A stretch of 10,803 bases of DNA from Gemmatimonadota bacterium (lineage in GTDB: Bacteria; Latescibacterota; UBA2968; UBA8231). The notes beneath the pieces are model-generated. The model saw nothing but the letters and a program-made list of their open reading frames with translations. It ran no database searches and was not told the DNA's origin. The translations under genes and the position numbers were made by a program. The stretch is from NCBI GenBank assembly GCA_009845645.1, contig VXZF01000142.1, positions 1 to 10,803 of the forward strand. The letters run 5' to 3'. This document shows positions 44-10,803 of the stretch, piece by piece; within the stretch, counting starts at the first letter, position 1; each line of letters begins with the position of its first letter.

Positions 44-1084
44 ATGCGACTGGGATTCAAGAAAGTTACAGTATATCAGAGCGTAGATTTGGCGACCAGC
101 AAGCAAGCATTTATAGAAGCCTCCAAGGCAAAGCCGACCTTTACTGCTGAGCAGGGAGCAGTGGCTTTTGCTAGACAGGGGCTAGGCTCGATTATCGAAT
201 GGACTGAACTTGAAGCAAATTACACCAACTGTGTCTATAAGGCAGTGTGTTGTGACGGCAGCTATGTGATCAAGATCAAGTATCGAAAAGCCTTCTCGCT
301 AGCGGTCGATTTCAATATTACCGCATTGTTACGCGATACAACCACTCTGCCCGTCCCGGAGACCAGTGTATTATGCGAGGACACCGATGTGTTCGGATAT
401 CCTTATCTGATTTCTAGTCTGCTCCCCGGTACTCAAGGACGAGACTTTTTCGAGAGGCCCAGTACTAGCGATGATCGGCGATGTCGCCTGCTCAAAGAAT
501 TTGGCTCAGTGGTCGCTGCCATCAATGAACAGAGAGTATCCGACGGTCTCCTGCCCGTGCAGGATGTGACCCAATGGCGAGAAGACATACGGAGAAAGCT
601 CCTTTACAATCAGGACTTGGTAGCCGACCTGCCAGAGAATTGTCAAGCCAAGTTGCCCATTATCGAAGATCTTCTGGACAAGATTGATGTCGTGCCGAAT
701 CCGAGTCCTCAAGGGCTTCTATGGGGAGATGCAACTATACACAATCTTTTGGTTGATGATGATGGCCATATCGTCGGCATTTACGATTTTGAGAATGGAG
801 CGACTGGCGACCTTCTACATGACCAACTGCATGTCGCAGCAGAGTTTACCCGAAAACCTCAAGAAATTTATGGTCGCGATCACTATCCGCAGGAGTTTTG
901 GTCTGGGTATGCGGAGGCAGGTGGAGTGCGAATAGAACCAGATGAGACGTACCTTAAAGTCAGACAAGCCACCATGGGCGCCGGTTTGTGCTGGTTCTGG
1001 GAAGTGCTGGGAGTCTTTCACCCCAAAACGCCGCAATGGCTGGATGACTTGGAAAGTGGATTAAAAAGCCTTGTGGATTCCTGA
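44..1084 (+). CDS. Aminoglycoside/choline kinase-fold phosphotransferase (APH family)
   Basis: A protein of about 346 residues with the APH (protein-kinase-like) fold, predicted to transfer phosphate from ATP to a small hydroxylated substrate in the cytoplasm. Numbering from the ATG at 44, Lys77 in VIKI is the likely ATP-anchoring lysine, the catalytic loop is WGDATIHN with Asp229 and Asn234, and the metal-binding DFG equivalent is DFE at 248-250. All three key positions are present, so it is probably active. The substrate cannot be told: antibiotics, choline, fructosamines or homoserine are all used by relatives. The start is uncertain. The frame is open to the left edge (a GTG lies at 5) and ATG 44 has no clear ribosome-binding site. 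The first 32 or so residues precede the normal beginning of the fold (FTAEQ), so they may be an extension or read-in from upstream. An attC follows 40 bases after the stop, making this a cassette gene. Confidence 0.8.
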   Translation: MRLGFKKVTVYQSVDLATSKQAFIEASKAKPTFTAEQGAVAFARQGLGSIIEWTELEANYTNCVYKAVCCDGSYVIKIKYRKAFSLAVDFNITALLRDTTTLPVPETSVLCEDTDVFGYPYLISSLLPGTQGRDFFERPSTSDDRRCRLLKEFGSVVAAINEQRVSDGLLPVQDVTQWREDIRRKLLYNQDLVADLPENCQAKLPIIEDLLDKIDVVPNPSPQGLLWGDATIHNLLVDDDGHIVGIYDFENGATGDLLHDQLHVAAEFTRKPQEIYGRDHYPQEFWSGYAEAGGVRIEPDETYLKVRQATMGAGLCWFWEVLGVFHPKTPQWLDDLESGLKSLVDS

Positions 1085-1124
1085 GGCTCGGGTGCGCATA
1101 AACGTGAGTCAAATGTCATTCTTC

Positions 1125-1190
1125 GCGTAACAAGCAGTTACCACTGCGGGCAACCTGCTTCGCAGGTTCAGTGACTGCAAGACGTTATCT
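1125..1190 (+). repeat. attC recombination site 1
   Basis: Integron attC, 66 bases, downstream of the kinase gene. The left core is GCGTAAC (1125-1131) and the right core GTTATCT (1184-1190). Between them lie nested inverted repeats: GCAGT..CACTG pairs with CAGTG..ACTGC, capped by a 7-bp hairpin AACCTGC-TTC-GCAGGTT at 1152-1168. The folded bottom strand of such sites is the substrate of the integron integrase, which cuts between G and T of the right core, so the next cassette starts at 1185. Cores deviate somewhat from consensus but the palindrome is excellent. Confidence 0.85.
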
Positions 1191-1216
1191 GCCATGCGTT
1201 TTCGCCTGATTGGTCG

Positions 1217-1223
1217 AAGGGGT
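1217..1223 (+). promoter_or_regulatory. Ribosome-binding site deciding the beta-propeller start
   Basis: GAAGGGG ends 7 bases before the ATG at 1231, a normal Shine-Dalgarno spacing. It favours ATG 1231 over the in-frame TTG at 1210, which lies upstream of this site. Confidence 0.55.
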
Positions 1224-1230
1224 TACAGCT

Positions 1231-2049
1231 ATGGAAACTTCCAAAATCGCCTTTGTGAGAGACCGGGATGGACTCTTTGATATCTTTACCATGAATGAGG
1301 ATGGAACAGATCAGACCAACATCACGCGCACCCCGGATTACGAGAAAGATCACGTAAGCTGGTCTCCCAATGGCACGCGTATCGCCTACTGCGACCGACG
1401 CCATGGCAAGGGCGAAATTTACGTAATCAACGCCGATGGAAGCGAACCGAGGCGACTGACCCACAATTCGGCCCCTGATCTTCGTTCTCACTGGTCGCCC
1501 GACGGCCAGACGATCATTTTTTGCACGGATCGTCACGACAACGTCGAGATCTATGCCATGAACAGCGACGGTTCTAACCAGAGGAATTTGACCAATCATC
1601 CGGCGTATGAGTTGGAATCAACTTTTTCCCCAGATGGCTCTAAGATTGCCTTCACGACCGACCGCGATGGTAAGACACAAATTTATGTGATGAAACCGGA
1701 TGGAAGCGAGCAAAAACGGTTGCACGTTTCTCAGGGCAACGATGAAGATCCTGCTTGGTCACCGGACGGCAAGTGGATCGCCTTTAAGTCGGACCGCGAT
1801 GGCAAAAGATCGCAACTCTACATCATGAGAGCGGATGGGTCGGATCCTAGACGCCTCACCAACGTTGAGGGCGGCGGCGCTATGGAACCCTCATGGTCGC
1901 CAGATGGCTCGGCGATCAGCTTCACAGGCGACTGGGAAGGCCGCCAGCAAATCTACCGGATAGATATCGACGGAAAGAATTTGACTAATCTCTCTAATAG
2001 CTCGACGAAGGATTTTGCTGGTGATTGGGGACCAACGATCAAGATTTGA
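1231..2049 (+). CDS. PD40/WD40-like (TolB-type) beta-propeller protein, soluble
   Basis: A 272-residue protein made almost entirely of PD40 repeats like those in the C-terminal propeller of TolB. The signature W/F-S-P-D/N-G appears five times, at residues about 44, 88, 132, 176 and 222, so each blade is 44 to 46 residues. Each is preceded by IY-x-M/I-x-x-DG and often RLT/NLT. With the incomplete repeats at both ends this gives a six-bladed propeller. There is no signal peptide and no TolB N-terminal domain, so unlike TolB it should be cytoplasmic. Propellers of this type usually bind proteins or ligands, and no catalytic residue is apparent; the actual partner is unknown. It lies just after attC 1 and is followed after 18 bases by the hydrolase with no attC between, so the two share a cassette and possibly a transcript. 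Confidence 0.85.
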   Translation: METSKIAFVRDRDGLFDIFTMNEDGTDQTNITRTPDYEKDHVSWSPNGTRIAYCDRRHGKGEIYVINADGSEPRRLTHNSAPDLRSHWSPDGQTIIFCTDRHDNVEIYAMNSDGSNQRNLTNHPAYELESTFSPDGSKIAFTTDRDGKTQIYVMKPDGSEQKRLHVSQGNDEDPAWSPDGKWIAFKSDRDGKRSQLYIMRADGSDPRRLTNVEGGGAMEPSWSPDGSAISFTGDWEGRQQIYRIDIDGKNLTNLSNSSTKDFAGDWGPTIKI

Positions 2050-2067
2050 GCTTTTGAGCTTCGGCAA

Positions 2068-2796
2068 ATGACAGAGTCGTTTGTTGATATTGGAAATCTC
2101 CGTCTGTGGACAATAGTGCAGGGGAGAGGAGTGCCGTTGGTGCTGTGCAGTGGTGGTCCTGGTTGCTGCGACTATCTTGAACCCCTTGCAGGAATGCTCG
2201 ATGATCTATGTGAAGTGATTCGCTTCGATCACAGAGGATGTGGTCGGTCTGACAAGGCGGAGCCTTATACACTTGCAACCTGCCTTGAGGACTTGCACAC
2301 CATTCGTCATCACTACGGTGTCGATCGCTGGATCATGGTTGGCCACTCATTCGGGGCGGACTTATCGTTGGCCTATTCAATGCGATACCCCGAGCACGTG
2401 CATGGCTTCATTTGTCTTTCAGGAGGTCGGGTACACAACGATCGGGACTGGCACCGAAGCTACAGCGAGCGGCGTGATCAGGGGCTTGAGGCACCGCCAG
2501 AGCAGGCATATCCAGCGAATATGGAGGTGAACAAGCAGGTCAACGAGTCTTGGAAGGAATATATTAAACGCCCAGAGCTGTTTCGGGACTTGGCATCATT
2601 GACCGTACCAGGGCTCTTCGTGTATGGCAGACAGGATATCAGGCCGAGTTGGCCAGTCGAGCAACTTGCTCAACTGTTGCCGAACGCGCGTTTGGAGTTT
2701 CTTGAGAATGCCCATCACCAAATTTGGCTTGGGCACGAAGAATTGCTCCAAGGTTTCTTGAGGGAATTTGTAAAGAAATTTACCCACAGCACATAA
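2068..2796 (+). CDS. Alpha/beta hydrolase, prolyl-iminopeptidase-like
   Basis: A 242-residue, apparently complete alpha/beta-hydrolase of the peptidase S33/AB_hydrolase_1 type. Seen in order: oxyanion-hole motif SGGPGC (28-33), DHRGCGRSD (54-62), nucleophile elbow GHSFGA with Ser94, acid-containing loop VYGRQD with Asp190, and the catalytic His in ENAHHQIW (216 or 217). The HGGPG-like and RGCGRS motifs resemble prolyl aminopeptidases and related hydrolases, but the short cap region (about 120-175) makes the substrate unpredictable; esters, amides or lactones are possible. It is cytoplasmic, without a signal peptide. The start ATG has only a weak upstream ribosome-binding site and lies 18 bases after the beta-propeller stop, so translational coupling is plausible. 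The stop codon forms part of the left core of the following attC, a common arrangement in cassettes. Confidence 0.85.
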   Translation: MTESFVDIGNLRLWTIVQGRGVPLVLCSGGPGCCDYLEPLAGMLDDLCEVIRFDHRGCGRSDKAEPYTLATCLEDLHTIRHHYGVDRWIMVGHSFGADLSLAYSMRYPEHVHGFICLSGGRVHNDRDWHRSYSERRDQGLEAPPEQAYPANMEVNKQVNESWKEYIKRPELFRDLASLTVPGLFVYGRQDIRPSWPVEQLAQLLPNARLEFLENAHHQIWLGHEELLQGFLREFVKKFTHST

Positions 2797-2874
2797 CACG
2801 TCCGCGCCCGGCTTCGGCGCTAGCGCGCCTTTGCCCAACCGCTACGCGGTTCGGGCACGGCGAAAACGTTACAC
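2791..2874 (+). repeat. attC recombination site 2
   Basis: 84-base attC. The left core ACATAAC (2791-2797) contains the hydrolase stop codon; the right core is GTTACAC (2868-2874). The tip hairpin AACCGC-TAC-GCGGTT (2837-2851) is flanked by GCCC/GGGC with one unpaired C, resembling the extrahelical base typical of attC. The left arm CGTCCG..GCCCGGC is partly matched by the right-arm CGGGCACGGCG. Confidence 0.88.
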
Positions 2875-2893
2875 GCCATCCGGATGAAGATGG

Positions 2894-2899
2894 AAAGGA
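2894..2899 (+). promoter_or_regulatory. Ribosome-binding site deciding the GTG start of the zinc-ribbon gene
   Basis: AAAGGA ends 7 bases before the GTG at 2907. Earlier in-frame starts (for example 2724) would place the N-terminus inside the hydrolase gene and the attC, so GTG 2907 is preferred. Confidence 0.55.
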
Positions 2900-2906
2900 C
2901 GAGAAC

Positions 2907-3311
2907 GTGGCGAAATCCTGTCCTGAATGCTTAAGTGATGTTCCTGAGAGCGCATTTGTATGTCACGCTTGCGGCCGAAGGATCGTGGGAAAGGAGTGCC
3001 CCGAGTGTTGTGAAGTTTCGAAAGAGCCTGCAAAAAGGTGCGCCTATTGCGGCCACAACTTTGAGCGCAAGGAGAAGATTGCCAACATTGAACCATTTAG
3101 TGCAAAGGCCTCATTGCTGGCCACGCTCTTCCTCCGGATGCGTTTGATCCCACAGGAGATTTTCCTAACTCCAGAGAAGATCGTCATCCAAACGTGGGGA
3201 TTCTTTTGGCTTAGCAGGTCGGACGAAGACATCCCTTGGGAGAAAATCGCCGGCTATCACTACCACGCAGGATGGTTCTGGGACAGTCTTGAAATCCAGA
3301 CACGCGGCTAG
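2907..3311 (+). CDS. Double zinc-ribbon protein with PH-like domain, ended early by an amber codon
   Basis: A 134-residue product of unknown function. The N-terminus holds two zinc ribbons, each with paired CxxC knuckles: Cys5/Cys8 with Cys19/Cys22, and Cys31/Cys34 with Cys45/Cys48, a double zinc-ribbon (DZANK-like) arrangement. From about residue 60 the sequence (LIPQEIFLTPEKIVIQ, then WFWDSLEIQTRG) looks like bacterial PH-type domains, which begin with a similar 'e.i.lT..ri.i' strand. The frame stops at TAG 3309-3311 but continues in the same frame for 25 further codons to TAG 3387-3389, giving a helix-like tail that ends KADGLRIKEILEQMKE, as expected for the C-terminal helix of a PH domain. 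A CAG to TAG change is the simplest explanation, so this product is probably truncated and perhaps non-functional. It lacks a signal peptide or membrane segment. Confidence 0.7.
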   Translation: MAKSCPECLSDVPESAFVCHACGRRIVGKECPECCEVSKEPAKRCAYCGHNFERKEKIANIEPFSAKASLLATLFLRMRLIPQEIFLTPEKIVIQTWGFFWLSRSDEDIPWEKIAGYHYHAGWFWDSLEIQTRG

Positions 3312-3389
3312 ACAGCCAATAGAATACGATGCCTTCAGAAAGCAGACGGTCTAAGAATCAAGGAAATACTCGAGCAAATGAAAGAGTAG
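3312..3389 (+). pseudogene. Detached C-terminal tail of the zinc-ribbon/PH-like gene
   Basis: Twenty-five in-frame codons continue past the amber stop at 3309-3311 and end at a second TAG (3387-3389). They encode an amphipathic lysine/glutamate-rich helix closing with IKEILEQMKE. The frame is unchanged across the stop, so a single base substitution rather than an indel would separate it from the main part. It would be made only with amber suppression or readthrough. Confidence 0.55.
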
Positions 3390-3410
3390 AGACGAAGAGG
3401 ACCCGGCGGC

Positions 3411-3434
3411 GTGTAACACGTCCGTGCGCGGCTC
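3411..3434 (+). repeat. Partial attC (left arm only)
   Basis: Begins GTGTAACACG and continues CCGTGCGCGGCTC, nearly identical to the left arm of the attC at 4277 (only one differing base over the 19 following the shared TAAC). No tip hairpin and no right core follow; the sequence passes directly into a GNAT gene fragment. This is the remnant of the zinc-ribbon cassette's attC after a deletion. Confidence 0.65.
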
Positions 3435-3551
3435 GGCGAAGGGAGTCCTGTCGGTTTCTACGAAAAATGCGGTTTTGTCCGTAATGGCAAGACGTATGGT
3501 GATCTCCATATTATCGAGCGCTACACTGCATTTTTGCCGTATAGTCACTAG
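3435..3551 (+). pseudogene. C-terminal remnant of a GNAT acetyltransferase
   Basis: An in-frame stretch without a start codon reads GEGSPVGFYEKCGF and continues about 24 residues to TAG at 3549-3551. The GxGSPxxFYxKxGF pattern is the hallmark C-terminal motif of many GNAT N-acetyltransferases, covering the last helix and strand. The acetyl-CoA-binding motif A and everything before it are missing. An in-frame TAA at 3414 in the attC remnant closes the frame upstream. The gene has therefore lost its 5' part, probably in the same deletion that removed the right half of the attC. The sulfotransferase gene starts 20 bases after its stop, with no attC between. Confidence 0.65.
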
Positions 3552-3571
3552 CTAGCTTTGGAGACACATGG

Positions 3572-4204
3572 ATGGTTGAGATGATAGACTCAGAAGTCAC
3601 CCTCGTCAGTGTCCACATTCCCAAAACGGGGGGGATGACGCTGTTGAGTATTTTACAGCAAGTGTATGTTGGTCACCTACAACTCGCCTACGAGGATGAG
3701 CGTGATACGATAGTCGAAAAACCACTCTGCTATCACGGACATGCTGTGCTGGATAAGTTTGCCAACAATTTGGCCGCATTGCCCAATGTGAAATGGATGA
3801 CGTTTCTGCGCGACCCCCTTCGATCTGCGGTCTCGCTTTATCACTACGGTGTTAAACATGGGACCATTCGCGAAATGGGGCTGGACCAGTGGCTCACGGG
3901 AACGGAGATGTTCTGCTGGCCCGATCCTCCCGCATACAACCACAACCGCTTCTCGAAATGGATCGGGCGTGCGAGAACCTCATGGGATCAGTTTGACCTC
4001 ATCGGACTCACAGAGTACTTCGACGAATCGATCCAACTCGCTTCGGAAGTGCTTGGATGGCCTGATGTCGAATACACATCGCAGAACGTGGGGACGTACG
4101 GCGATCCCAATATGAATGAATCGACTATCAATGTTTTTCGTCGGTTGAATTCAGATGACTACATAGTGTATGATAAAGCGATAAGGCGATTGCAGGGCCA
4201 ATAA
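3572..4204 (+). CDS. Sulfotransferase family protein (PAPS-dependent)
   Basis: A 210-residue protein of the sulfotransferase superfamily, which moves a sulfuryl group from PAPS to sugars, lipids or other hydroxyl or amine acceptors. The 5'-phosphosulfate loop is HIPKTGGMTL (15-24), with the Lys-Thr-Gly-Gly expected of the Sulfotransfer_2 or Gal-3-O-type families. The 3'-phosphate motif is FLRDPLRSAVSLYHY (78-92), containing the characteristic Arg-Asp-Pro and Ser. The acceptor cannot be predicted. ATG 3572 is chosen because GGAG sits at 3560-3563 at suitable spacing; ATG 3581 is an alternative. The frame continues without a stop from 4205 to the TAA inside the next attC (4280), so the C-terminus may once have been 26 codons longer. 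It follows a GNAT remnant and precedes an attC. Confidence 0.82.
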   Translation: MVEMIDSEVTLVSVHIPKTGGMTLLSILQQVYVGHLQLAYEDERDTIVEKPLCYHGHAVLDKFANNLAALPNVKWMTFLRDPLRSAVSLYHYGVKHGTIREMGLDQWLTGTEMFCWPDPPAYNHNRFSKWIGRARTSWDQFDLIGLTEYFDESIQLASEVLGWPDVEYTSQNVGTYGDPNMNESTINVFRRLNSDDYIVYDKAIRRLQGQ

Positions 4205-4276
4205 GACGCTGCACTGGAAGAGGAATCCGCTGCGCTTCTATCCCCGCCGGTGAGTTTGAACGGTAGATCCTACTTC

Positions 4277-4361
4277 ATCTAACACGACCGTGCGCGGCTC
4301 AGTCCTGACGGGCTTCGACCCAACCTGCTCCGCAGGTTCGCGCACGGCGAAGCCGTCAGAG
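4277..4361 (+). repeat. attC recombination site 3, with altered right core
   Basis: 85-base attC. The left core ATCTAAC (4277-4283) is a perfect RYYYAAC. CCGTGCGCGGC in the left arm pairs with GCGCACGGCG in the right arm, and the tip hairpin AACCTGC-TCC-GCAGGTT spans 4322-4338. The base at the expected right core is GTCAGAG (4355-4361) instead of GTTRRRY, changing the second T of the cleavage triplet. A canonical GTTATGC occurs 54 bases further on at 4415-4421. Confidence 0.82.
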
Positions 4362-4447
4362 GAAATAGGAAAAGTAAAATTAGATCCTTGTAGGATATCT
4401 CCAGTATATCACTAGTTATGCAACAAGAGAATTGAGTAGCCTTTGCC
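4362..4447 (+). other. AT-rich spacer with an isolated GTTATGC core
   Basis: This 86-base leader between attC 3 and the next gene is clearly richer in A and T than its surroundings. It contains GTTATGC (4415-4421), identical to the right core of the attC at 6831-6837, but no palindrome leads to it. It could be a second cassette boundary, an insertion, or chance. No convincing promoter or ribosome-binding site was found. Confidence 0.35.
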
Positions 4448-5497
4448 ATGAACGAAGTCCTGAGGGCCCTAGATCGCGAACAGCTCAAGCGTGCTTTCAG
4501 CAATCACTTCGGATGCTCGATCGAAGAGATCAAAGTCCGAGAGTCGAGGCCGTTGCCTCCGAATCCTGGATTGTCTGGGGACAAACTGATCTGCGAAGTC
4601 TCGATGCGGTCAGGAGGAAGAACCTTGGCTCCGGTGGAGTGCTGTATCAAGCGGATGGTAACGCCCGACGGCCGCGAAGCCCATCTGTATCGATCGCTGC
4701 ACGACTTGCAGTTCCCGTTGCCCGAGTTCTATGGGCACTATCTGGATGAGAAGGGTCGGGAGGTGCTGATCCTGGAGTATATCCCGCGTGTAGGGTACTC
4801 CTTTCGATCAGATGAGGAGACAACGGAGTGGCTTTCGCTCATGGCTCGATTCAACTCCATGCCACTGAGTGCCTTCGATGTTGATTCACTAAGGCAGCAG
4901 GATTGGGGAGTTTGGCTCATCGATGGGAAGGTTGAGACCGAGTTTGAAGAAGTGATACGGTGCGCGGCTGAATCCTTGATCGGCGACGAGTTGGCCGCGT
5001 TCTGCCAAGCTCAGGCGTCCAAGATCCGATCTCTTAGTGGCTTCGCCAGAAGACTTCACGCCGTGGTAATGGACATGCCTAAGGCGCTTTGCAACGAGGA
5101 GCTTCATCCGGGATGGCGATCAGACGGAACACTTGTGGCATTCGATCTGCACAGTACAAGACCGAGTCCTCGGTTCATGGACATCTCGAACTACATCGGC
5201 GCACCCGAGTCGGGATCATGGCTAGGGGCCCTGTCACCTCGGATGAAGTGGGCCCGCGTCTACGGCGAAGCGTTGGCAGTTGCGGGCGGCCCATCCGTCG
5301 ACGCGGCGACCATTCTACACGAGTCACGTCTTGTTTGGATGGCATTCGCATTCCAACTCGCATGGTGCCTTCAGGTCGCTATCGACGGCAAGATCAACTG
5401 GTCGGAGGATCTAGAGAAGAACAAGCTGGGGGCGCGCAGAGGGATCCTGATGCGGCTTGCCTATTTAACAGAGGCTCAAGAATGGGCCCTGGTGTGA
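4448..5497 (+). CDS. APH-fold protein with degenerate catalytic loop
   Basis: A 349-residue protein resembling aminoglycoside phosphotransferases. The N-lobe has ECCIKRM with Lys68 as likely beta3 lysine, REAHLYRSL with Glu78 as likely helix-C glutamate, and hinge LEYIP at 109-113. The normal catalytic loop HGDLHPGN appears here as NEELHPGW (216-223): the LHPG core is kept, but the catalytic Asp is Glu and the metal-binding Asn is Trp. The DFG position reads FDLHS with Asp233. Thus either a pseudo-kinase, a protein with another nucleotide chemistry, or a decayed enzyme; the frame itself is intact, which argues against simple decay. The start ATG 4448 has no strong ribosome-binding site. A GNAT gene follows after 62 bases without an intervening attC, so both lie in one cassette. 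It is cytoplasmic and its substrate is unknown. Confidence 0.7.
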   Translation: MNEVLRALDREQLKRAFSNHFGCSIEEIKVRESRPLPPNPGLSGDKLICEVSMRSGGRTLAPVECCIKRMVTPDGREAHLYRSLHDLQFPLPEFYGHYLDEKGREVLILEYIPRVGYSFRSDEETTEWLSLMARFNSMPLSAFDVDSLRQQDWGVWLIDGKVETEFEEVIRCAAESLIGDELAAFCQAQASKIRSLSGFARRLHAVVMDMPKALCNEELHPGWRSDGTLVAFDLHSTRPSPRFMDISNYIGAPESGSWLGALSPRMKWARVYGEALAVAGGPSVDAATILHESRLVWMAFAFQLAWCLQVAIDGKINWSEDLEKNKLGARRGILMRLAYLTEAQEWALV

Positions 5498-5559
5498 AGA
5501 GCCTCAGTGGAACATCTTCTGAGATCCAACGGAGGCAAACTGTATAACTACGGTGAACC

Positions 5560-6003
5560 ATGGCAGACATCCTGGTGAGACTTGCTAGCAAGGCAGATGT
5601 CGAGTGGTGTGTAAAGACTGCCACATTTGACTCGAATCGATTTGCTGAGCAGATCTCCGGCATAAACGAAGTGATCGTCGCGGAATTGCAGGGTGAACTC
5701 GTGGGAGTGCTTCACCTATGCTTTTTGTGGCCAGGACATGATGGCGGAACCGCATTCATCAGCCTGATTAACGTATTGCATCAGCACCAGCGAAAAGGTA
5801 TTGGGAAGGCTATGTTGGCGTTCGTAGAAGATGATCTGCGGCACCGAGGCCACAGGATTCTGTTGAGTTCGTGCGTTGTGGATGAATACGAGCCGCAGAC
5901 ATGGCATAGACACATGGGGTTTTCTGAGTGCGGGTTTCTGGCAGGTTTCCCGTTTGAGGACGACCTGGGGGAGCTTTTCCTGTTCAAAGAGCTGGGGACG
6001 TAG
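5560..6003 (+). CDS. GNAT family N-acetyltransferase
   Basis: A 147-residue, full-length GNAT protein predicted to transfer an acetyl group from acetyl-CoA to an amine. Motif A is seen as LINVLHQHQRKGIGKAML (69-86), with the pyrophosphate-binding Q-R-K-G-I-G at 77-82. The C-terminal MGFSECGF segment (119-126) is the usual GNAT beta6 region. The N-terminal VRLASKADVEW matches the typical first strand and helix of the fold. Relatives acetylate antibiotics, protein N-termini, polyamines or amino acids; nothing here selects among these. It shares a cassette with the upstream APH-fold gene and is followed within 6 bases by an attC. Confidence 0.85.
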   Translation: MADILVRLASKADVEWCVKTATFDSNRFAEQISGINEVIVAELQGELVGVLHLCFLWPGHDGGTAFISLINVLHQHQRKGIGKAMLAFVEDDLRHRGHRILLSSCVVDEYEPQTWHRHMGFSECGFLAGFPFEDDLGELFLFKELGT

Positions 6004-6009
6004 GCCATC

Positions 6010-6097
6010 GCTCAACACAGCGTTTTGCGCTGCGGTACCTTTGGCACCTTGGCCTACGGCAACCGCTTCGCGGTTCGCAAACCGTGAAACGTTAGAC
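6010..6097 (+). repeat. attC recombination site 4
   Basis: 88-base attC with canonical cores GCTCAAC (6010-6016) and GTTAGAC (6091-6097). The tip hairpin AACCGC-TTC-GCGGTT lies at 6061-6075. The inner right arm TTCGCAAACCGTGAAAC partly mirrors the left arm AGCGTTTTGCGCTGCGGT. It ends the GNAT cassette; the methyltransferase cassette begins at 6092. Confidence 0.88.
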
Positions 6098-6126
6098 AAC
6101 ACCCAATTTGAAAGGTCATCCGATCA

Positions 6127-6732
6127 ATGCAGTTCTCCGAAATCCTGATCGCTTCGTACGAAAATCACGCACGTGAACGGGAATCGAGTGCTTCCAATGA
6201 ATTCAAGGAGCAAGAGAAGCACGAGTTTCAGAAATATCTGAGAAGCGAGAGACGAAACACTATCCTTGAGCTTGGCTGTGGGCCAGGCCACGACGCACGA
6301 TCCTTTCAGGAACAGGGTTTCCAAATTCTAGCTATCGACGCTGCTCCAACTATGGTACAATTAGCGAAGCAAAAAGGAGTCAACGCCAGGATTCTGGATT
6401 GTTATGACCTTGATCAGATGGTCGAAACGTTTGACGCCGTTTACTCCATGAATTGTCTTCTTCACATACCGCAGAATGATATTCTTCACATACTCGATTT
6501 GATCTCGGCTCGTCTCAATGAAGGCGGCTTGTTGTACCTTGGCTTATGGGGAGGCGAAGACTTTGAGGGTATCTGGGAGAAGGACCGATATGAGCCGAAA
6601 CGATTTTTCTCTTTTCGGAAGACAGAGACTCTCTTGAGTGTCGTACATCAGTCGTTCGAGGTCGAGTATTTTCGAAGAATAGAGGCTCAAAAGAGTATGT
6701 TCTTCAATTCACTGATTAGTCGCAAGCGTTAG
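6127..6732 (+). CDS. Class I SAM-dependent methyltransferase
   Basis: A 201-residue protein of the Methyltransf_11/25 type. Motif I is ILELGCGPGHDAR (46-58), which binds S-adenosylmethionine. ILAIDAAPTMVQLAK (67-81) contains the acidic Asp71 expected to hold the ribose hydroxyls. FDAVYSMNCLLHIP (102-115) is the motif IV region, and the post-motif strand GGLLYLGLWGGED lies around 133-145. The methyl acceptor is unknown; relatives modify small molecules, tRNA and antibiotics. A GAAAGG at 6110-6115 precedes the ATG by 11 bases and may serve in translation. It is alone in its cassette, between attC sites 4 and 5. Confidence 0.87.
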   Translation: MQFSEILIASYENHARERESSASNEFKEQEKHEFQKYLRSERRNTILELGCGPGHDARSFQEQGFQILAIDAAPTMVQLAKQKGVNARILDCYDLDQMVETFDAVYSMNCLLHIPQNDILHILDLISARLNEGGLLYLGLWGGEDFEGIWEKDRYEPKRFFSFRKTETLLSVVHQSFEVEYFRRIEAQKSMFFNSLISRKR

Positions 6733-6754
6733 CCCGAGGTGGGCCTCGTCTAAC
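6728..6754 (+). repeat. Short inverted repeat across the methyltransferase stop
   Basis: GTTAG (6728-6732) and CGAGG (6735-6739) pair with CCTCG (6744-6748) and CTAAC (6750-6754) around a TGGG loop. The outer arms are the gene's stop region and the left core of the next attC. With no T-run after it, it is not an intrinsic terminator of standard form, and the core order is opposite to that of an attC. Confidence 0.45.
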
Positions 6755-6837
6755 ACAGCAGTTCGCGCTGGGCGTATACGCGCCCTAGCCCTAGGGGCAG
6801 CCTGCTTCGCAGGTTCGCAAACCATGGGACGTTATGC
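6748..6837 (+). repeat. attC recombination site 5
   Basis: 90-base attC with canonical left core GTCTAAC (6748-6754) and right core GTTATGC (6831-6837). The tip hairpin AGCCTGC-TTC-GCAGGTT (6799-6815) contains one G-T wobble. The arms also contain GGGCG-TATACG-CGCCC and a CCCTAGGGG palindrome, so more than one fold is possible. The right half resembles attC 4 closely (GGTTCGCAAACC in both). Confidence 0.88.
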
Positions 6838-7897
6838 GAAAGTGAGTTCGATTTTGTTTAGAACGGATTTCTTCCAAGCGCACTTGGAAAACTGGGAACT
6901 CATTCTACAGGAGCGAACCGTTGAAGCCATCGAACGGATCGCATCTGTTCCTGGCGTTGCGGGTGTGATTCTAGGGGGTAGCGTTGGGCGAGGAATGGCG
7001 TGGCCTATATCAGATATAGACCTCATCTACATTACTACCAGGGTGGCGGACAACAGTCTTGCAAAAAGAGTGGACGAGCTTGCGTTGTCCATCACAAGGG
7101 AGTGGGGTCGAGACACGTGGCCGACGTCTGTTGACGCAGGTCGACTCCATTTTACAGCCGACGAGGCAGACGACTTGATCAAAGGCAAGCGTCACTTAGA
7201 TGAGCTGATGGCCAACGAGAGGACTTTCCATGCGACCGACAAGAGCCACCTCGGTCAATCAGTTCACGCGTCTGAGGATTGCGATACTCCTGCATTTGTT
7301 GTGCTACTTTCCGATGGTCGATTTGACCCATCGGTTGTCCAGGCACGCCAAATCGAGCGGGTCAGACGTGTAACCAGTCTCGCTCAGCGAGTTCAGTCAC
7401 ATCTGGAGGCAGGTAGTCTGATTGAAGCAGGGATCTCTATACAGGAACTCGCGCGTGTGATAATCCCATATCTGCAGGAAAGGTGGGGGCATGGAGATCG
7501 GTCCTTTGGCAGGGCTTTCACTCGTTTTTGCGTTCTAGCTCACGAGCACCAGGAAGAAGGAATTGCGAATCGCCTCATTCGACTGTTCTCTCTTACGGCG
7601 GATGAGGTAGAAGCAAGGTACGCCAAGGCTCCCGCTAATGTTGTGGAGCGGCACATCACATCGTATCCATCCCGCCTAGCCGTGGGCGAGGAGATCACGG
7701 AGCTCGATGACAAACGCGATGTCCTGTATGCCTATACGTGGTATGCAGTTCGTACTGGTGAAACAGGTTCGTGGCTCCTCAATGAGGATCTCCACAAGTC
7801 TCAACTCAAGTTGTCACTGGATCAAACAGCATCCATATGGGCCGAGGTGGTCTCGAAGGAGCCGGATTGCGTATCTAGCGAACTCACCTTCGCATAG
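6824..7897 (+). CDS. Nucleotidyltransferase-fold protein (aminoglycoside nucleotidyltransferase-like)
   Basis: A protein of up to 357 residues with the polymerase-beta nucleotidyltransferase motif: GGSVGRGMAWPISDIDL gives GGS at 51-53 and the metal-binding pair Asp64 and Asp66. Such enzymes transfer a nucleotide to small molecules (ANT enzymes), proteins (MNT toxins/antitoxins) or RNA. The large alpha-helical C-terminal part (about 190-350) resembles the accessory domains of antibiotic nucleotidyltransferases, but I do not recognise a specific subfamily. The start is unsettled: ATG 6824 lies inside the upstream attC, before its cleavage point at 6831, so it would belong to the previous cassette. 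In-frame GTG 6842 or TTG 6854 lie within the cassette itself. A second nucleotidyltransferase gene follows after 75 bases, with no attC between. Confidence 0.75.
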   Translation: MGRYAKVSSILFRTDFFQAHLENWELILQERTVEAIERIASVPGVAGVILGGSVGRGMAWPISDIDLIYITTRVADNSLAKRVDELALSITREWGRDTWPTSVDAGRLHFTADEADDLIKGKRHLDELMANERTFHATDKSHLGQSVHASEDCDTPAFVVLLSDGRFDPSVVQARQIERVRRVTSLAQRVQSHLEAGSLIEAGISIQELARVIIPYLQERWGHGDRSFGRAFTRFCVLAHEHQEEGIANRLIRLFSLTADEVEARYAKAPANVVERHITSYPSRLAVGEEITELDDKRDVLYAYTWYAVRTGETGSWLLNEDLHKSQLKLSLDQTASIWAEVVSKEPDCVSSELTFA

Positions 7898-7963
7898 TGC
7901 GTTGCCAGCCCGTCGCCGGTTCAATCGCTATCCCTCTATCGCCTAAAGGCCACAGTCTCACGC

Positions 7964-7967
7964 GAGG
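7964..7967 (+). promoter_or_regulatory. Ribosome-binding site of the AadA-like gene
   Basis: GAGG, within CGCGAGG, ends 5 bases before ATG 7973. It is one of the clearest Shine-Dalgarno sequences in the array and supports this start. Confidence 0.55.
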
Positions 7968-7972
7968 TTTTT

Positions 7973-8806
7973 ATGAACCATCGCCTAGCTCCTACCCCAT
8001 TTACCGACGTCAATTTTGTCCTTGACCACTTCCGCTCACAGCTTCAAGCACTCTTGGACAGCGAGCTCGTGGGCATCTATCTGGTCGGTTCTCTCGCCTT
8101 GGGCGATTTCAACCCGCGCAGCAGCGATATTGATTTTGTTGTCGTGACCTCTACAGAGATTGATCCTGATCGCTTCACTGCCTTGCAACATGTCCACGCC
8201 CAATTCGCTGCCAGCGACTCCCCTTGGTCCGAGAAGATTGAAGCGATCTATGTTCCTGCTTCTGCGCTTCGTCACAGCGCGACAAATACCTCGCACTATC
8301 CACAGATCGAAAAGGGAACGTCGCTGTTTCTAGCTCCACTCGAAGATGGATGGGTTTTCCAATGTCTCACCATCCGTGATCAGAGCGTGAGCATTATCGG
8401 ACCCGATTCGCGAACACTGGTTGACCCAATTGAGACTCAGGAACTCCACGCCGCAGCGACGATGATTGTCGGTCGATGGATACAACAGGTAGCACACGAC
8501 CCGACGTGGTTGCTATGGCTACGCCAAACAGAAGCCCAAGTATTTGTAGTTCAAACTCTTTGTCGTTTGCGGTATTCGTTGGCAACGGGAACAGTCGCCT
8601 CCAAGCCCCGTGCAACTGAGTGGGCTCGAAAGAATTATGGAGAACCTTGGGCCAGTTTCATCGAGCAATCTCTTACCAAACATCACGGGTCAGGAAACAT
8701 ATCACAAGGCGAGGAGAACACGACGCTCGCCTTCCTGGCATTCATCCTTGAAGAGATTCAGCGTTCTGCTGCCGCAATCAGATCACGAACCCAGAATGCA
8801 AGCTAA
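7973..8806 (+). CDS. AadA/ANT-like aminoglycoside nucleotidyltransferase (DUF4111 C-domain)
   Basis: A 277-residue protein matching the two-domain layout of AadA-type adenylyltransferases, which inactivate streptomycin and spectinomycin by AMP transfer. The N-terminal domain has VGSLALGDFNPRSSDIDF (38-55) with metal ligands Asp52 and Asp54; Glu90 in EKIEAIYVP is the likely catalytic base by position. The C-terminal helical domain contains TLCRLRYSLATGTVASKPRATEWA (about 195-218), which parallels the conserved ADP-/aminoglycoside-binding helix region of AadA (TLxRxxYSxATGxIxxK). Length is close to AadA (about 260). Overall similarity to the known aadA alleles appears moderate, so resistance is an inference and no allele name is given. 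It is the last gene of the array; the stop codon lies in an attC-like left core. Confidence 0.82.
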   Translation: MNHRLAPTPFTDVNFVLDHFRSQLQALLDSELVGIYLVGSLALGDFNPRSSDIDFVVVTSTEIDPDRFTALQHVHAQFAASDSPWSEKIEAIYVPASALRHSATNTSHYPQIEKGTSLFLAPLEDGWVFQCLTIRDQSVSIIGPDSRTLVDPIETQELHAAATMIVGRWIQQVAHDPTWLLWLRQTEAQVFVVQTLCRLRYSLATGTVASKPRATEWARKNYGEPWASFIEQSLTKHHGSGNISQGEENTTLAFLAFILEEIQRSAAAIRSRTQNAS

Positions 8807-8884
8807 CACGCCGCTGTAGCTGACGCCGCTGTGCGGCCCCAAGATCGGTGCAATCATGACGTACCTGATTTGCTCCAGTTAGGC
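8801..8884 (+). repeat. Degenerate attC-like end of the array
   Basis: AGCTAAC (8801-8807) carries the stop of the preceding gene, and GTTAGGC (8878-8884) lies 84 bases away, the spacing of the other sites. A hairpin GCCGC-TGT-GCGGC (8825-8837) and a direct repeat ACGCCGCTGT (8808-8817, 8823-8832) occupy the left part. The right half lacks the complement of the left arm and the tip hairpin of its neighbours. Either a divergent attC or a left half joined to foreign sequence. Confidence 0.5.
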
Positions 8885-8918: not shown

Positions 8919-10803
8919 ATGAAGCAGAAACAACATGAGCCTAAGAAAGTGGCGATTTTGGCCTTTGCCGTGCTGGGTGGGATTGCAGGGTTTTGCAGCC
9001 ATGGGGCGGCCCAAGAAAATTGGTGGCAGCTCGGAGGAGAGGGCGGCGTTTCCTGGACGGAAGTAGCGGATTTCAGCCTGATGACGGACGACTCGACCGC
9101 CGCTGGGGCGCTCCAGCCTTTCGAACTCAAGCCGGACGAGAACCTCTTGCCTCAGTTGGGACCCTGGCAGCCCTTCAGGTTCACCTTCGACCCGGTTTAC
9201 CACCCGGGTCATCCGCGTTTGTGGCTGGGACACGGCAACTTTCTATTGAAGAGCCGCGACGAGAACCTGGGGAATTATGGTATTTTGTACCAGCCCAACC
9301 TCCTCGTCTTCGTCGACGGCGATCCCGCCACCTACGTCGAGCGCAGGGACGAGGTCGCCGACCCGCGCAGCCGCCCACCATCGGGGTCGTCTTTCTATTA
9401 CACGATAGATATGGGCGCGCAGGTGCCGGTGGAGCGCTTTGTGTTCTACCCTCCCGAGGGGGTGAGCTCCGACAGCGACCAGCCCTTTCGTCCCAACTAT
9501 GTCCTCAAATCATTCAGCCTGACAGCCCGCCAAGACGAGGGAGGTATAATGGAAGAGGAGATGGCGCAGGGCTTCAGATGGCGCGGGGCGGGCTTCTGCT
9601 GCCCGCTGGAAAATCAGCTAACCTACCGCCAAGCCAACCGCGACAGCGTCACCGAGGTCCGCTTCCCGCTGCAGAATTTGCGCTATTTGCGCCTGCTGGA
9701 AGTCCCCGACGGACTCACTTTGGATGGTCAGCCGATCGTCGTCCAGTCGGCTTATGCGGAGATGGAGGTCTACGGCCGGGGTTTTGCGCCTACGGCGACC
9801 TGGGAGTCGCAGATAGTGGACCTGGGGCGGGAGGTCAACTTCGGGCGAGTGGTCTTCGAGGTGAGCAAGTGGCGCAAGGACGGGGAGCGGTTGGTCGCCC
9901 TTGAGGACGGTCCGGTTCGCGTCCAGGTGGAGATCAGGACGGGTCGCGACGACACTCCGACGGCCTACTTCGGCTTTGACGATCTGGGAGCCCACGTGGA
10001 GGTGACCAAGAAACAGTGGGAACGGCTGACTTCCTCCGTGCCGAGGGCGACCTTGATCAGTTCCATATCTAGACTGGAGGCGCGCGGTGCCACGGTGCCG
10101 GTGGTGGGATTTCGAGGGCCGGTGGTCGAGGATCTGAAAAACTGGAGTTTCTGGTCGGTGCCACTCGCGGAGTCGGGACAGCACCCGCGCCTGCCGTGGG
10201 GGCGCTACTTTCAGCTGCGGGTGCAGCTAGAGACGGATGCGTTCTTTGACTTTGCCCGGCTGGATTCGCTGCAGATCGAGATCGCGCCGCTGTTGGCGGA
10301 TCGGGTCGTGGGCGAGGTGGTCCTGGAGGAAGATCACCAGCCGCAGGGCGGGCGAGTGCGCGTGCCGGCGGGCGAGAAAAAGTCGTTCGTATACGATATT
10401 GGCGTTGAATTTTCCAGCGCGGACCGCACCGGCTTCGACGTCGTGCGGGTCATGACGCCGGCGGAAGCGGAGTTCGGCTGGCTGGAGATAGGTGAGCCCT
10501 TGGGCACCGTGGAACCGGACAGCATCGTGAACGAGGAAAGCGGTTTTGTTGTATTTTTGCCCCGCCGCTTGAGTCCAGAGGGCGATCAGCGGCTGCGCAT
10601 TGGGCTAGAAACAGTGCTCTACGACGAGGCCGGCGAGTTCGGAGGGGAGGTTTTCAACCGCGGGGAACAGAGCTTGTTGCAGCGGGTCGAAGGCGGTGAT
10701 GTCAGCGAGGAGCTTGGTTCCAACCAACTGGTGGTGGTAGCGTCGGCTTCCTCGGCAAGGGGAGTTCTGGGGGATCTCGAGGTGGGGAGCCGCGCTTTTA
10801 CCC
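8919..10803 (+). CDS. Large exported protein of unknown function (partial, continues past the right edge)
   Basis: A single frame is open from ATG 8919 to the window end (628 codons plus one base), with no stop. The N-terminus is a classic signal peptide: basic MKQKQHEPKK, hydrophobic VAILAFAVLGGIAGF, and a probable cleavage near Ala31-Gln32 (GAA-QE). The mature part is rich in beta-type sequence. LVFVDGD...YYTIDMG...VERFVFYPPE (about 129-180) resembles a discoidin/F5-8C-like galactose-binding sandwich. WESQIVDLGREVNFGRVVFEV (295-315) followed by VRVQVEIRTGRDD looks like a second sandwich of the kind in large secreted proteins of uncultured phyla. I recognise no catalytic motif. Third-position GC is much higher than in the cassettes, so it is probably host chromosome flanking the array. 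The ribosome-binding site is weak. Confidence 0.75.
   Translation, partial: MKQKQHEPKKVAILAFAVLGGIAGFCSHGAAQENWWQLGGEGGVSWTEVADFSLMTDDSTAAGALQPFELKPDENLLPQLGPWQPFRFTFDPVYHPGHPRLWLGHGNFLLKSRDENLGNYGILYQPNLLVFVDGDPATYVERRDEVADPRSRPPSGSSFYYTIDMGAQVPVERFVFYPPEGVSSDSDQPFRPNYVLKSFSLTARQDEGGIMEEEMAQGFRWRGAGFCCPLENQLTYRQANRDSVTEVRFPLQNLRYLRLLEVPDGLTLDGQPIVVQSAYAEMEVYGRGFAPTATWESQIVDLGREVNFGRVVFEVSKWRKDGERLVALEDGPVRVQVEIRTGRDDTPTAYFGFDDLGAHVEVTKKQWERLTSSVPRATLISSISRLEARGATVPVVGFRGPVVEDLKNWSFWSVPLAESGQHPRLPWGRYFQLRVQLETDAFFDFARLDSLQIEIAPLLADRVVGEVVLEEDHQPQGGRVRVPAGEKKSFVYDIGVEFSSADRTGFDVVRVMTPAEAEFGWLEIGEPLGTVEPDSIVNEESGFVVFLPRRLSPEGDQRLRIGLETVLYDEAGEFGGEVFNRGEQSLLQRVEGGDVSEELGSNQLVVVASASSARGVLGDLEVGSRAFT

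Follow-up and report, generated by a model that had tools for sequence, protein, structure and literature searches.

A probable cluster of attC sites lacking an integron-integrase, and its shared cassettes, in a genus of Latescibacterota

Introduction

The definition, likely origins and mobilization in trans of clusters of attC sites lacking integron-integrases (CALINs) are treated in parts of three papers on which we draw here (PMC9024848, PMC8618304, PMC12444791); for the origins, the relevant part of the 2021 review names off-target insertion, loss of the integron-integrase gene (intI) and rearrangement (PMC8618304). Here we describe what is very probably the right-hand part of such a cluster, chromosomal in location, on a contig of 10,803 bases (VXZF01000142.1, our C382; its whole length is called the window) from a Latescibacterota draft genome (G000; 4.37 Mb, 769 contigs, 75% complete). 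As in the CALINs described in the parts used (PMC9024848, PMC8618304), at least two attC sites bound cassettes with no integrase nearby, and there is no difference in principle, except that the host phylum is missing from the 2021 phylum list as given in that part of the review (PMC8618304). The same list names Gemmatimonadota, the label on some of the records analyzed here.

Xanthomonas integrons with an inactivated intI are similar in that, in the part of the source that covers them, CALINs occur at conserved loci, loss of intI is widespread and the arrays are eroding (PMC12444791). They differ in that the kept intI of Xanthomonas sits at a fixed locus (ilvD), whereas of 11 genomes in the present genus one carries an apparently frameshifted intI and another a remnant of the gene, and cassettes here have been shared recently between species in its absence. 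Sedentary chromosomal integrons, whose attC sites are conserved in sequence and structure according to the section on them (PMC8618304), likewise are chromosomal and have one recognizable attC type; the present array, in contrast, lacks intI, has few cassettes and has attC sites only 37-71% identical. Finally, a genome of the same family, G017, has both intI and an attC array (L024), whose sites, unlike those of the window, are 120-124 bp long, start with TAACA and lack an AACC-GGTT tip. This locus (L024 1119-10455), from a related genus, is apparently a complete integron with intI and at least five attC sites of that length.

The nearest relatives of the window were identified by a protein scan with F9, the host gene to the right of the array: an uncultured Latescibacteria chromosome (OX638377.1, G004) and two Gemmatimonadetes-labelled records (VXML01000079.1, G001; PBOD01000091.1, G009), all assigned with G000 to one genus, for which our set holds 11 genomes. 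Most of the genomes compared are drafts; G004 is a single-contig chromosome. We take the genus genomes to be mostly sponge-associated or marine. Cassette and flank genes common to loci of the genus are given F-numbers (F2, F3 and so on), and x denotes an unshared gene.

Results

attC Sites of the Window

The presumed cassette genes, from 57 to 8806, all lie on the + strand and are separated by five attC sites of the same orientation: a1 (1125-1190, 66 bp), a2 (2791-2874, R' GTTACAC), a4 (4277-4361, R' GTCAGAG), a5 (6010-6097) and a6 (6748-6837). All five fall within 5.7 kb, where two suffice for a CALIN. A covariance model, R1, was built from a2, a4, a5 and a6, with the R''/R', L''/L' and tip pairs set by hand; it recovered the held-out a1 with an E-value of 0.0023 in 130 kb and of 0.076 across the 4.37-Mb genome, R1 E-values being rough. 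A covariance-model search had been proposed in a preliminary description of this DNA; R1 matches all five sites, four of which it was built from. At E<=10 the model gave 13 matches in G000, five of them on C382 and eight on C455, C431, C715, C367 and C356.

Across 35 loci of the genus R1 gave 72 matches, in which 91.1% of pair cells were standard pairs, against 25-37% when the 3' partners were slid, and 180 pair cells carried two-sided changes, where shuffles gave 61.5. Having been fitted to R1, the alignment leans toward the model, but the slid and shuffled controls are far off. Helix 1, formed by the outer boxes (one ending in AAC, the other starting with GTT), was paired in 91.0% of cells over 71 distinct sites, and helices 2 and 3, at the inner L''/L' boxes, in 88.9% and 90.1%, with two-sided changes at eight of nine pairs. 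In a4 the second outer box begins with GTC, and its crossover triplet is therefore altered.

The R1 matches and the covariation of pairs support the description of the locus as an integron cassette array with a shared attC type, and the sequence and the model together bear out the count of five attC sites and two damaged ones between same-strand genes. The damaged sites are also as described. One, a3 (3411-3434, +), is a truncated 5' half, with a 21-nt repeat common to a2 and a4, fused to an acetyltransferase-like fragment (its 3' half was not found on reading the window sequence); the other, a7 (8801-8884, +, R' GTTAGGC), is a decayed site at the right edge of the array that keeps the outer boxes and has no paired arms. 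Within a7, at 8808-8836, there is a tandem duplication of ~15 bases that G001 does not have. The tip hairpin given for all five sites, AACC(T)GC-NNC-GC(A)GGTT, is present in a1, a2, a4 and a5 and fails in a6, where the 5' arm reads AGCC. The arms said to be similar are so in part, with pairwise identities between the five sites averaging 51.5% against 29.3% for shuffled sequences, which makes the uniformity that had hinted at a sedentary integron weaker than claimed.

The fold of the bottom strand stood out clearly from shuffles for a1 (z -2.67), a2 and a4 (z from -2.5 to -3.0 for the three); the separation was weak in a5 (-1.7) and a6 (-0.95) and lacking in a7 (-0.1). The bottom-strand fold was more stable than that of the top strand in three of the five sites and near equal to it in a1 and a6. 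A crude AAC...GTT finder scored three window sites at >=36 and none in 20 shuffles, and at this threshold missed a4 (R' = GTC) and a6. The same finder gave doubtful weak matches in relatives, and the covariance model was preferred.

In a wider set of 60 genomes (G000 included), 27 had an R1 match at E 0.05; of these, 26 belong to the window's class and the last is G048, at E 0.04. At E 1e-4 a match was present in 20 of the phylum's 64 genomes. The filters in both searches were strict, and weak matches are lost with them. An Rfam scan returned no matching attC family (three matches were at chance level), and plasmid records gave no match to a6 and only chance matches of 21-24 bases to a5. On the sequence of these two sites, a5 and a6, as searched in plasmids, we could not match this attC type to a counterpart outside the lineage. 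At least three further attC clusters appear to occupy corresponding chromosomal positions in several of the species, with shared flanks or cassettes (L040/L093/L098/L107/L116; L041/L094/L111/L118; L095/L097/L106/L112).

Cassette Order in Sister Genomes

The same cassettes are found at the same place in sister genomes in other orders, which argues that they were moved by an integrase now absent from the array. The order is F11-x-x-F4-F5-F6-F3-F2-F7-F12-(six further genes and a fragment)-F8-F9 in G000, F4-F5-F6-F3-F13-x-F2-F7-F8-F9 in G001, F11-F4-F3-x-x-F5-F6-F2-F7-F8-F14 in G008 and F3-x-x-F13-x-x-x-F12-F2-F9-F14 in G004, where the F12 cassette is placed upstream of F2 and a second F3 lies elsewhere. 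Four copies of F3 (one each in G001 and G008, two in G004) terminate precisely at CGTTA, each with a different neighbor to its right, and F3 starts at CGTTATACGAA in three; similarly, F2 starts at GTTACGCG in G001 and G004, behind different attC sites. When the alignment ends lying inside both arrays were collected (n=59, not all independent), 10 were at most 12 bases from the crossover in both genomes (random mean 0.0135) and 12 were at the crossover in at least one (random mean 1.7). Signs of erosion are also present: a1 is absent from G001, and F2 is joined directly to F9 in G004.

Third-position identity between genomes was 67.9-90.8% for the flank genes on the tRNA side (19 comparisons) and 91.7-99.4% for cassette genes in 25 of 26 comparisons; the remaining one, of F11, gave 73.1% and speaks against a recent exchange of that cassette. 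Because the cassette genes are more alike than the tRNA-side flank genes, the array is an island of similarity whose cassettes were exchanged after the lineages split. Outside the array, identity between G001 and G004 is 89.5% over 17.4 kb past its right side; on the left it is 89.5% over 5.8 kb and, further left, 94.0% over 7.4 kb.

In G004 the array locus itself is split, the tRNA-Val side and the F9 side being ~0.5 Mb from each other and, compared with G001, in opposite orientation. The arrays near the split ends (L091 and L092; 0.645-0.665 and 1.138-1.158 Mb) share an inverted 740-bp copy of F3 of 98% identity, consistent with an inversion via recombination between two arrays.

Integrase Search and the Ends of the Array

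We searched for intI with the TIGR02249 profile at its cut-off of 265 bits. G000 has three tyrosine recombinases, none of them IntI by this profile (best score 83.4 bits), and none of the 11 genus genomes passed the cut-off among the matches listed, G004 with its 13 R1 matches at five places included. A tblastn search with integron-integrase and Xer queries detected no integrase in the 56 stretches fetched around attC matches. In the class, 5 of 47 genomes passed the profile cut-off (G013, G015, G017, G018 and G020), and in these five there was no R1-type attC at E 0.05 with the strict filters.

On the left, C455 of G000 carries the block that precedes the array in G001 and G008, ending in tRNA-Val(gac) and a terminator-like hairpin, and a tRNA-Val gene is the left end of the array in all three genomes; G001 and G008 each have the array complete on a single contig, with no intI. 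The cassettes of C455 reach the first bases of F3, and the window opens with its last 56 matched bases (1-56, +; the remainder of the gene lies beyond the contig end). Since C455 stops in the start of F3 and C382 starts at its end, the two most likely belong to a single array as its left and right parts, separated by F3 alone. The 56 bases recur with 100% identity at the end of F3 in L087 (5803-5858) and L088 (1859-1914), and in both loci F3 leads on into an attC; in the window it runs into the next cassette without one. A short hairpin with attC-like outer boxes, GTCTAACCC...GGGTTAGAC, lies near the left edge of the array in the reverse complement of L039 (~1870-1925) and is possibly an attC reduced to its outer boxes.

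On the right, a7 (GTTAGGCTGA) is followed by a match to G009 from GACTATTTCTTAC onward, and the 10 kb upstream of F9 in G009 have no R1 match. A clean empty insertion site was not found: F9 is preceded by other DNA in G009, and in G003, G007 and G010 the retrieved stretches contain the tRNA-Val side but no F9.

The preliminary description had expected a lineage-specific integrase of the array's own to the left. The upstream check for intI speaks against this, as the left end in C455, G001 and G008 is a tRNA-Val gene without an integrase, tblastn gave none, and among the matches listed no genus genome is over the cut-off. As history, the idea of a lineage integrase has more in its favor, with traces of intI in at least two genus genomes (G006 and G010) among the matches listed. 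In G006 the gene is split over two frames (251.5 and 160.7 bits on C156), with its start on C19 (71.5 bits); the ends of C19 and C156 overlap by 141 identical bases, so that this apparently frameshifted intI spans a contig break (L169 7984-9908 on C19; L019 1-886 on C156). It is 67-75% identical to the intI products of G018 and G020. C19 also carries, left of this gene and on the opposite strand, a methyltransferase-like gene and an attC-like site of 134 bp (crude finder score 41.5), which is the layout of an ordinary integron.

The G010 remnant (L170 9336-11165, C80) comprises 65 N-terminal residues and lies left of three small, cassette-like genes on the + strand. The last two of these resemble a toxin-antitoxin pair by eye, and an attC-like stretch, to which R1 gave no match, follows the first. 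The flank beyond them is 95% identical over 2.3 kb to the flank right of the array in G008; the right flank of the window (F9) differs from that of G008, and the remnant is therefore tied to the array via G008 only.

Gene Content of the Window

The genes are described in order, all on the + strand. F2 (57-1084) is the body of a cassette, its leader missing, that encodes a phosphotransferase (APH) family protein (PF01636, E 5.1e-18), with copies 96-97% identical in G001, G004 and G008. Beyond a1 are F7 (1231-2049; longer frame from 1210), a TolB-like beta-propeller protein with PD40 repeats (E 3.3e-50), and F12 (2068-2796), an alpha/beta hydrolase (PF00561, E 2.8e-23), with no attC at their boundary. 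A double zinc-ribbon protein (2907-3311; PF12773, E 4.2e-7) follows a2, and the fragment that adjoins a3 (3438-3551) is by eye the end of a putative acetyltransferase gene, for which there was no Pfam match; the segment 3430-3502 is identical to a stretch in L088. The next gene (3572-4204) is weakly sulfotransferase-like (PF00685, E 0.034, below cut-off).

Between a4 and a5 lie a gene for 349 amino acids with no Pfam match (4448-5497) and a GNAT acetyltransferase gene (5560-6003; PF00583, E 1.7e-11), which matched AAC(6') models weakly and far under their cut-off. A methyltransferase gene (6127-6732; PF13649, E 2.2e-15) separates a5 from a6, and the nucleotidyltransferase-like gene beyond (6833-7897, frame from 6824; PF01909, E 0.0024, below cut-off) has a likely ATG start that overlaps the R' of a6 and 15 homologues, four of them of 347 amino acids. 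The last cassette gene, F8 (7973-8806), belongs to an AadA-like adenylyltransferase family (PF13427, E 1.1e-9, and PF01909), matches 2274 plasmid records, every one at <60% identity, and carries an internal deletion in G001. There is no attC at the boundary between the 349-residue gene and the GNAT gene, nor at that between the 6833 gene and F8. Families that contain aminoglycoside-modifying enzymes are thus represented by four genes of the array (the APH, GNAT, nucleotidyltransferase-like and AadA-like genes), none of which reaches a curated NCBIfam cut-off. G008 has one further gene that resembles AAC(3) by eye.

F9 (8919-10803), outside the array and truncated by the contig end, is from a large paralogous family, has no significant Pfam match and is 97% identical in G001 and G004 and 81% in G009. 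Its family has dozens of matches in each genome of the genus, up to 51. An opposite-strand gene of 676 amino acids, whose start resembles a sigma factor by eye, lies inside the array at L096 10634-12664 and has homologues of 98-99% identity in L039 and L105.

Discussion

Our account of the window as the right-hand part of a CALIN involves an integron-integrase that, acting on folded attC sites, would have placed the cassettes. The lineage may once have had its own integrase, apparently frameshifted in G006 and a remnant in G010 and mostly lost since, or the enzyme may have come in trans from relatives; that one of these two, loss or action in trans, accounts for the integrase step we consider fairly likely. 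The array would meanwhile be eroding by deletions through which attC sites are lost and neighboring cassettes fused.

Several observations weigh against this account. The 75% completeness of G000 and the draft state of most genomes mean that an integrase, or remnants of one, may have been missed elsewhere. R1 gave no match beside the G006 intI, and that enzyme is accordingly not tied to this attC type. The join between C455 and C382 is inferred, not assembled. Of the 59 alignment ends, 47 lie off the crossover in both genomes; these are deletions, fusions or alignment limits, and deletion or homologous recombination therefore accounts for much of the difference between arrays. Lastly, F9 and F14 on the right side have an unusually high third-position identity (94.1-97.6% in four comparisons), perhaps through transfer of a tract by homologous recombination. 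As these two genes are also raised, the mode of exchange is ambiguous: single cassettes may have been passed on through attC, or the exchange may in part have involved longer tracts.

A bolder and less likely reading is that cassettes were moved between species and loci after the species split, exactly at attC crossovers, by an integrase from outside or by an attC-using recombinase not yet known, although most genus members, the single-contig G004 among them, show no integron-integrase of their own. The outside enzyme might then have come from a related lineage (that of G006, for example), from a visiting element or from a community member.

It is also feasible, if unlikely, that there was no integrase movement in the lineage at all, and that arrays were inherited or imported and then rearranged only by homologous recombination and by deletion between repeated cassettes. 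The majority of alignment ends off the crossover, the large rearrangement between arrays of G004 with its inverted 740-bp cassette copy, and the similarity of the right flank genes are what this would predict. It sits poorly with F3, whose two boundaries fall precisely on the crossover in three genomes, next to different neighbors, and with the 10 of 59 ends on the crossover where 0.0135 would be expected.

The possibility that the window derives from a complete integron whose intI and attI lie just left of the contig is quite improbable. The contig does break at its left, five genomes of the same family have an integron-integrase over the cut-off, and the genus itself contains the apparently frameshifted G006 gene and the G010 remnant; however, the integrase-free tRNA-Val end in G000, G001 and G008, the lack of a genus genome over the cut-off among the matches listed, and the other type of site (120-124 bp) in the G017 array all contradict it, as does the lack of R1-type attC at E 0.05, under strict filters, in the five genomes with intI. 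A resident recombinase other than IntI, for instance XerC/XerD or the third such enzyme of G000 (a tyrosine recombinase on C135), is a very improbable mover of the cassettes: G000 does have three tyrosine recombinases, none IntI by model, and the exchange is recent, yet no relative of them was found in the 56 stretches around attC matches and no sequence feature links them to attC. That the hairpins belong to a REP or MITE-like dispersed repeat with no relation to cassettes, as their presence on six contigs of G000 could suggest, is extremely improbable given their R''/L''/L'/R' architecture with covariation and their position as the limits of exchanged units of gene plus site.

Our literature search, in which papers were partly judged by title and the start of the abstract, returned no report on integrons of Latescibacterota, which does not prove absence from print. 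We consider the lineage to be new, together with the recent movement of cassettes among G000, G001, G004 and G008, all of them without intI over the cut-off. The finding adds a poorly known phylum to the bearers of integron cassettes, and its eleven genomes form a natural set for comparing, locus by locus, the order of cassettes, the decay of attC sites and the loss of integrase. Should cassettes keep moving in lineages that lack an integrase of their own, CALINs would be, beyond dead remnants, a shared pool of cassettes served in trans.

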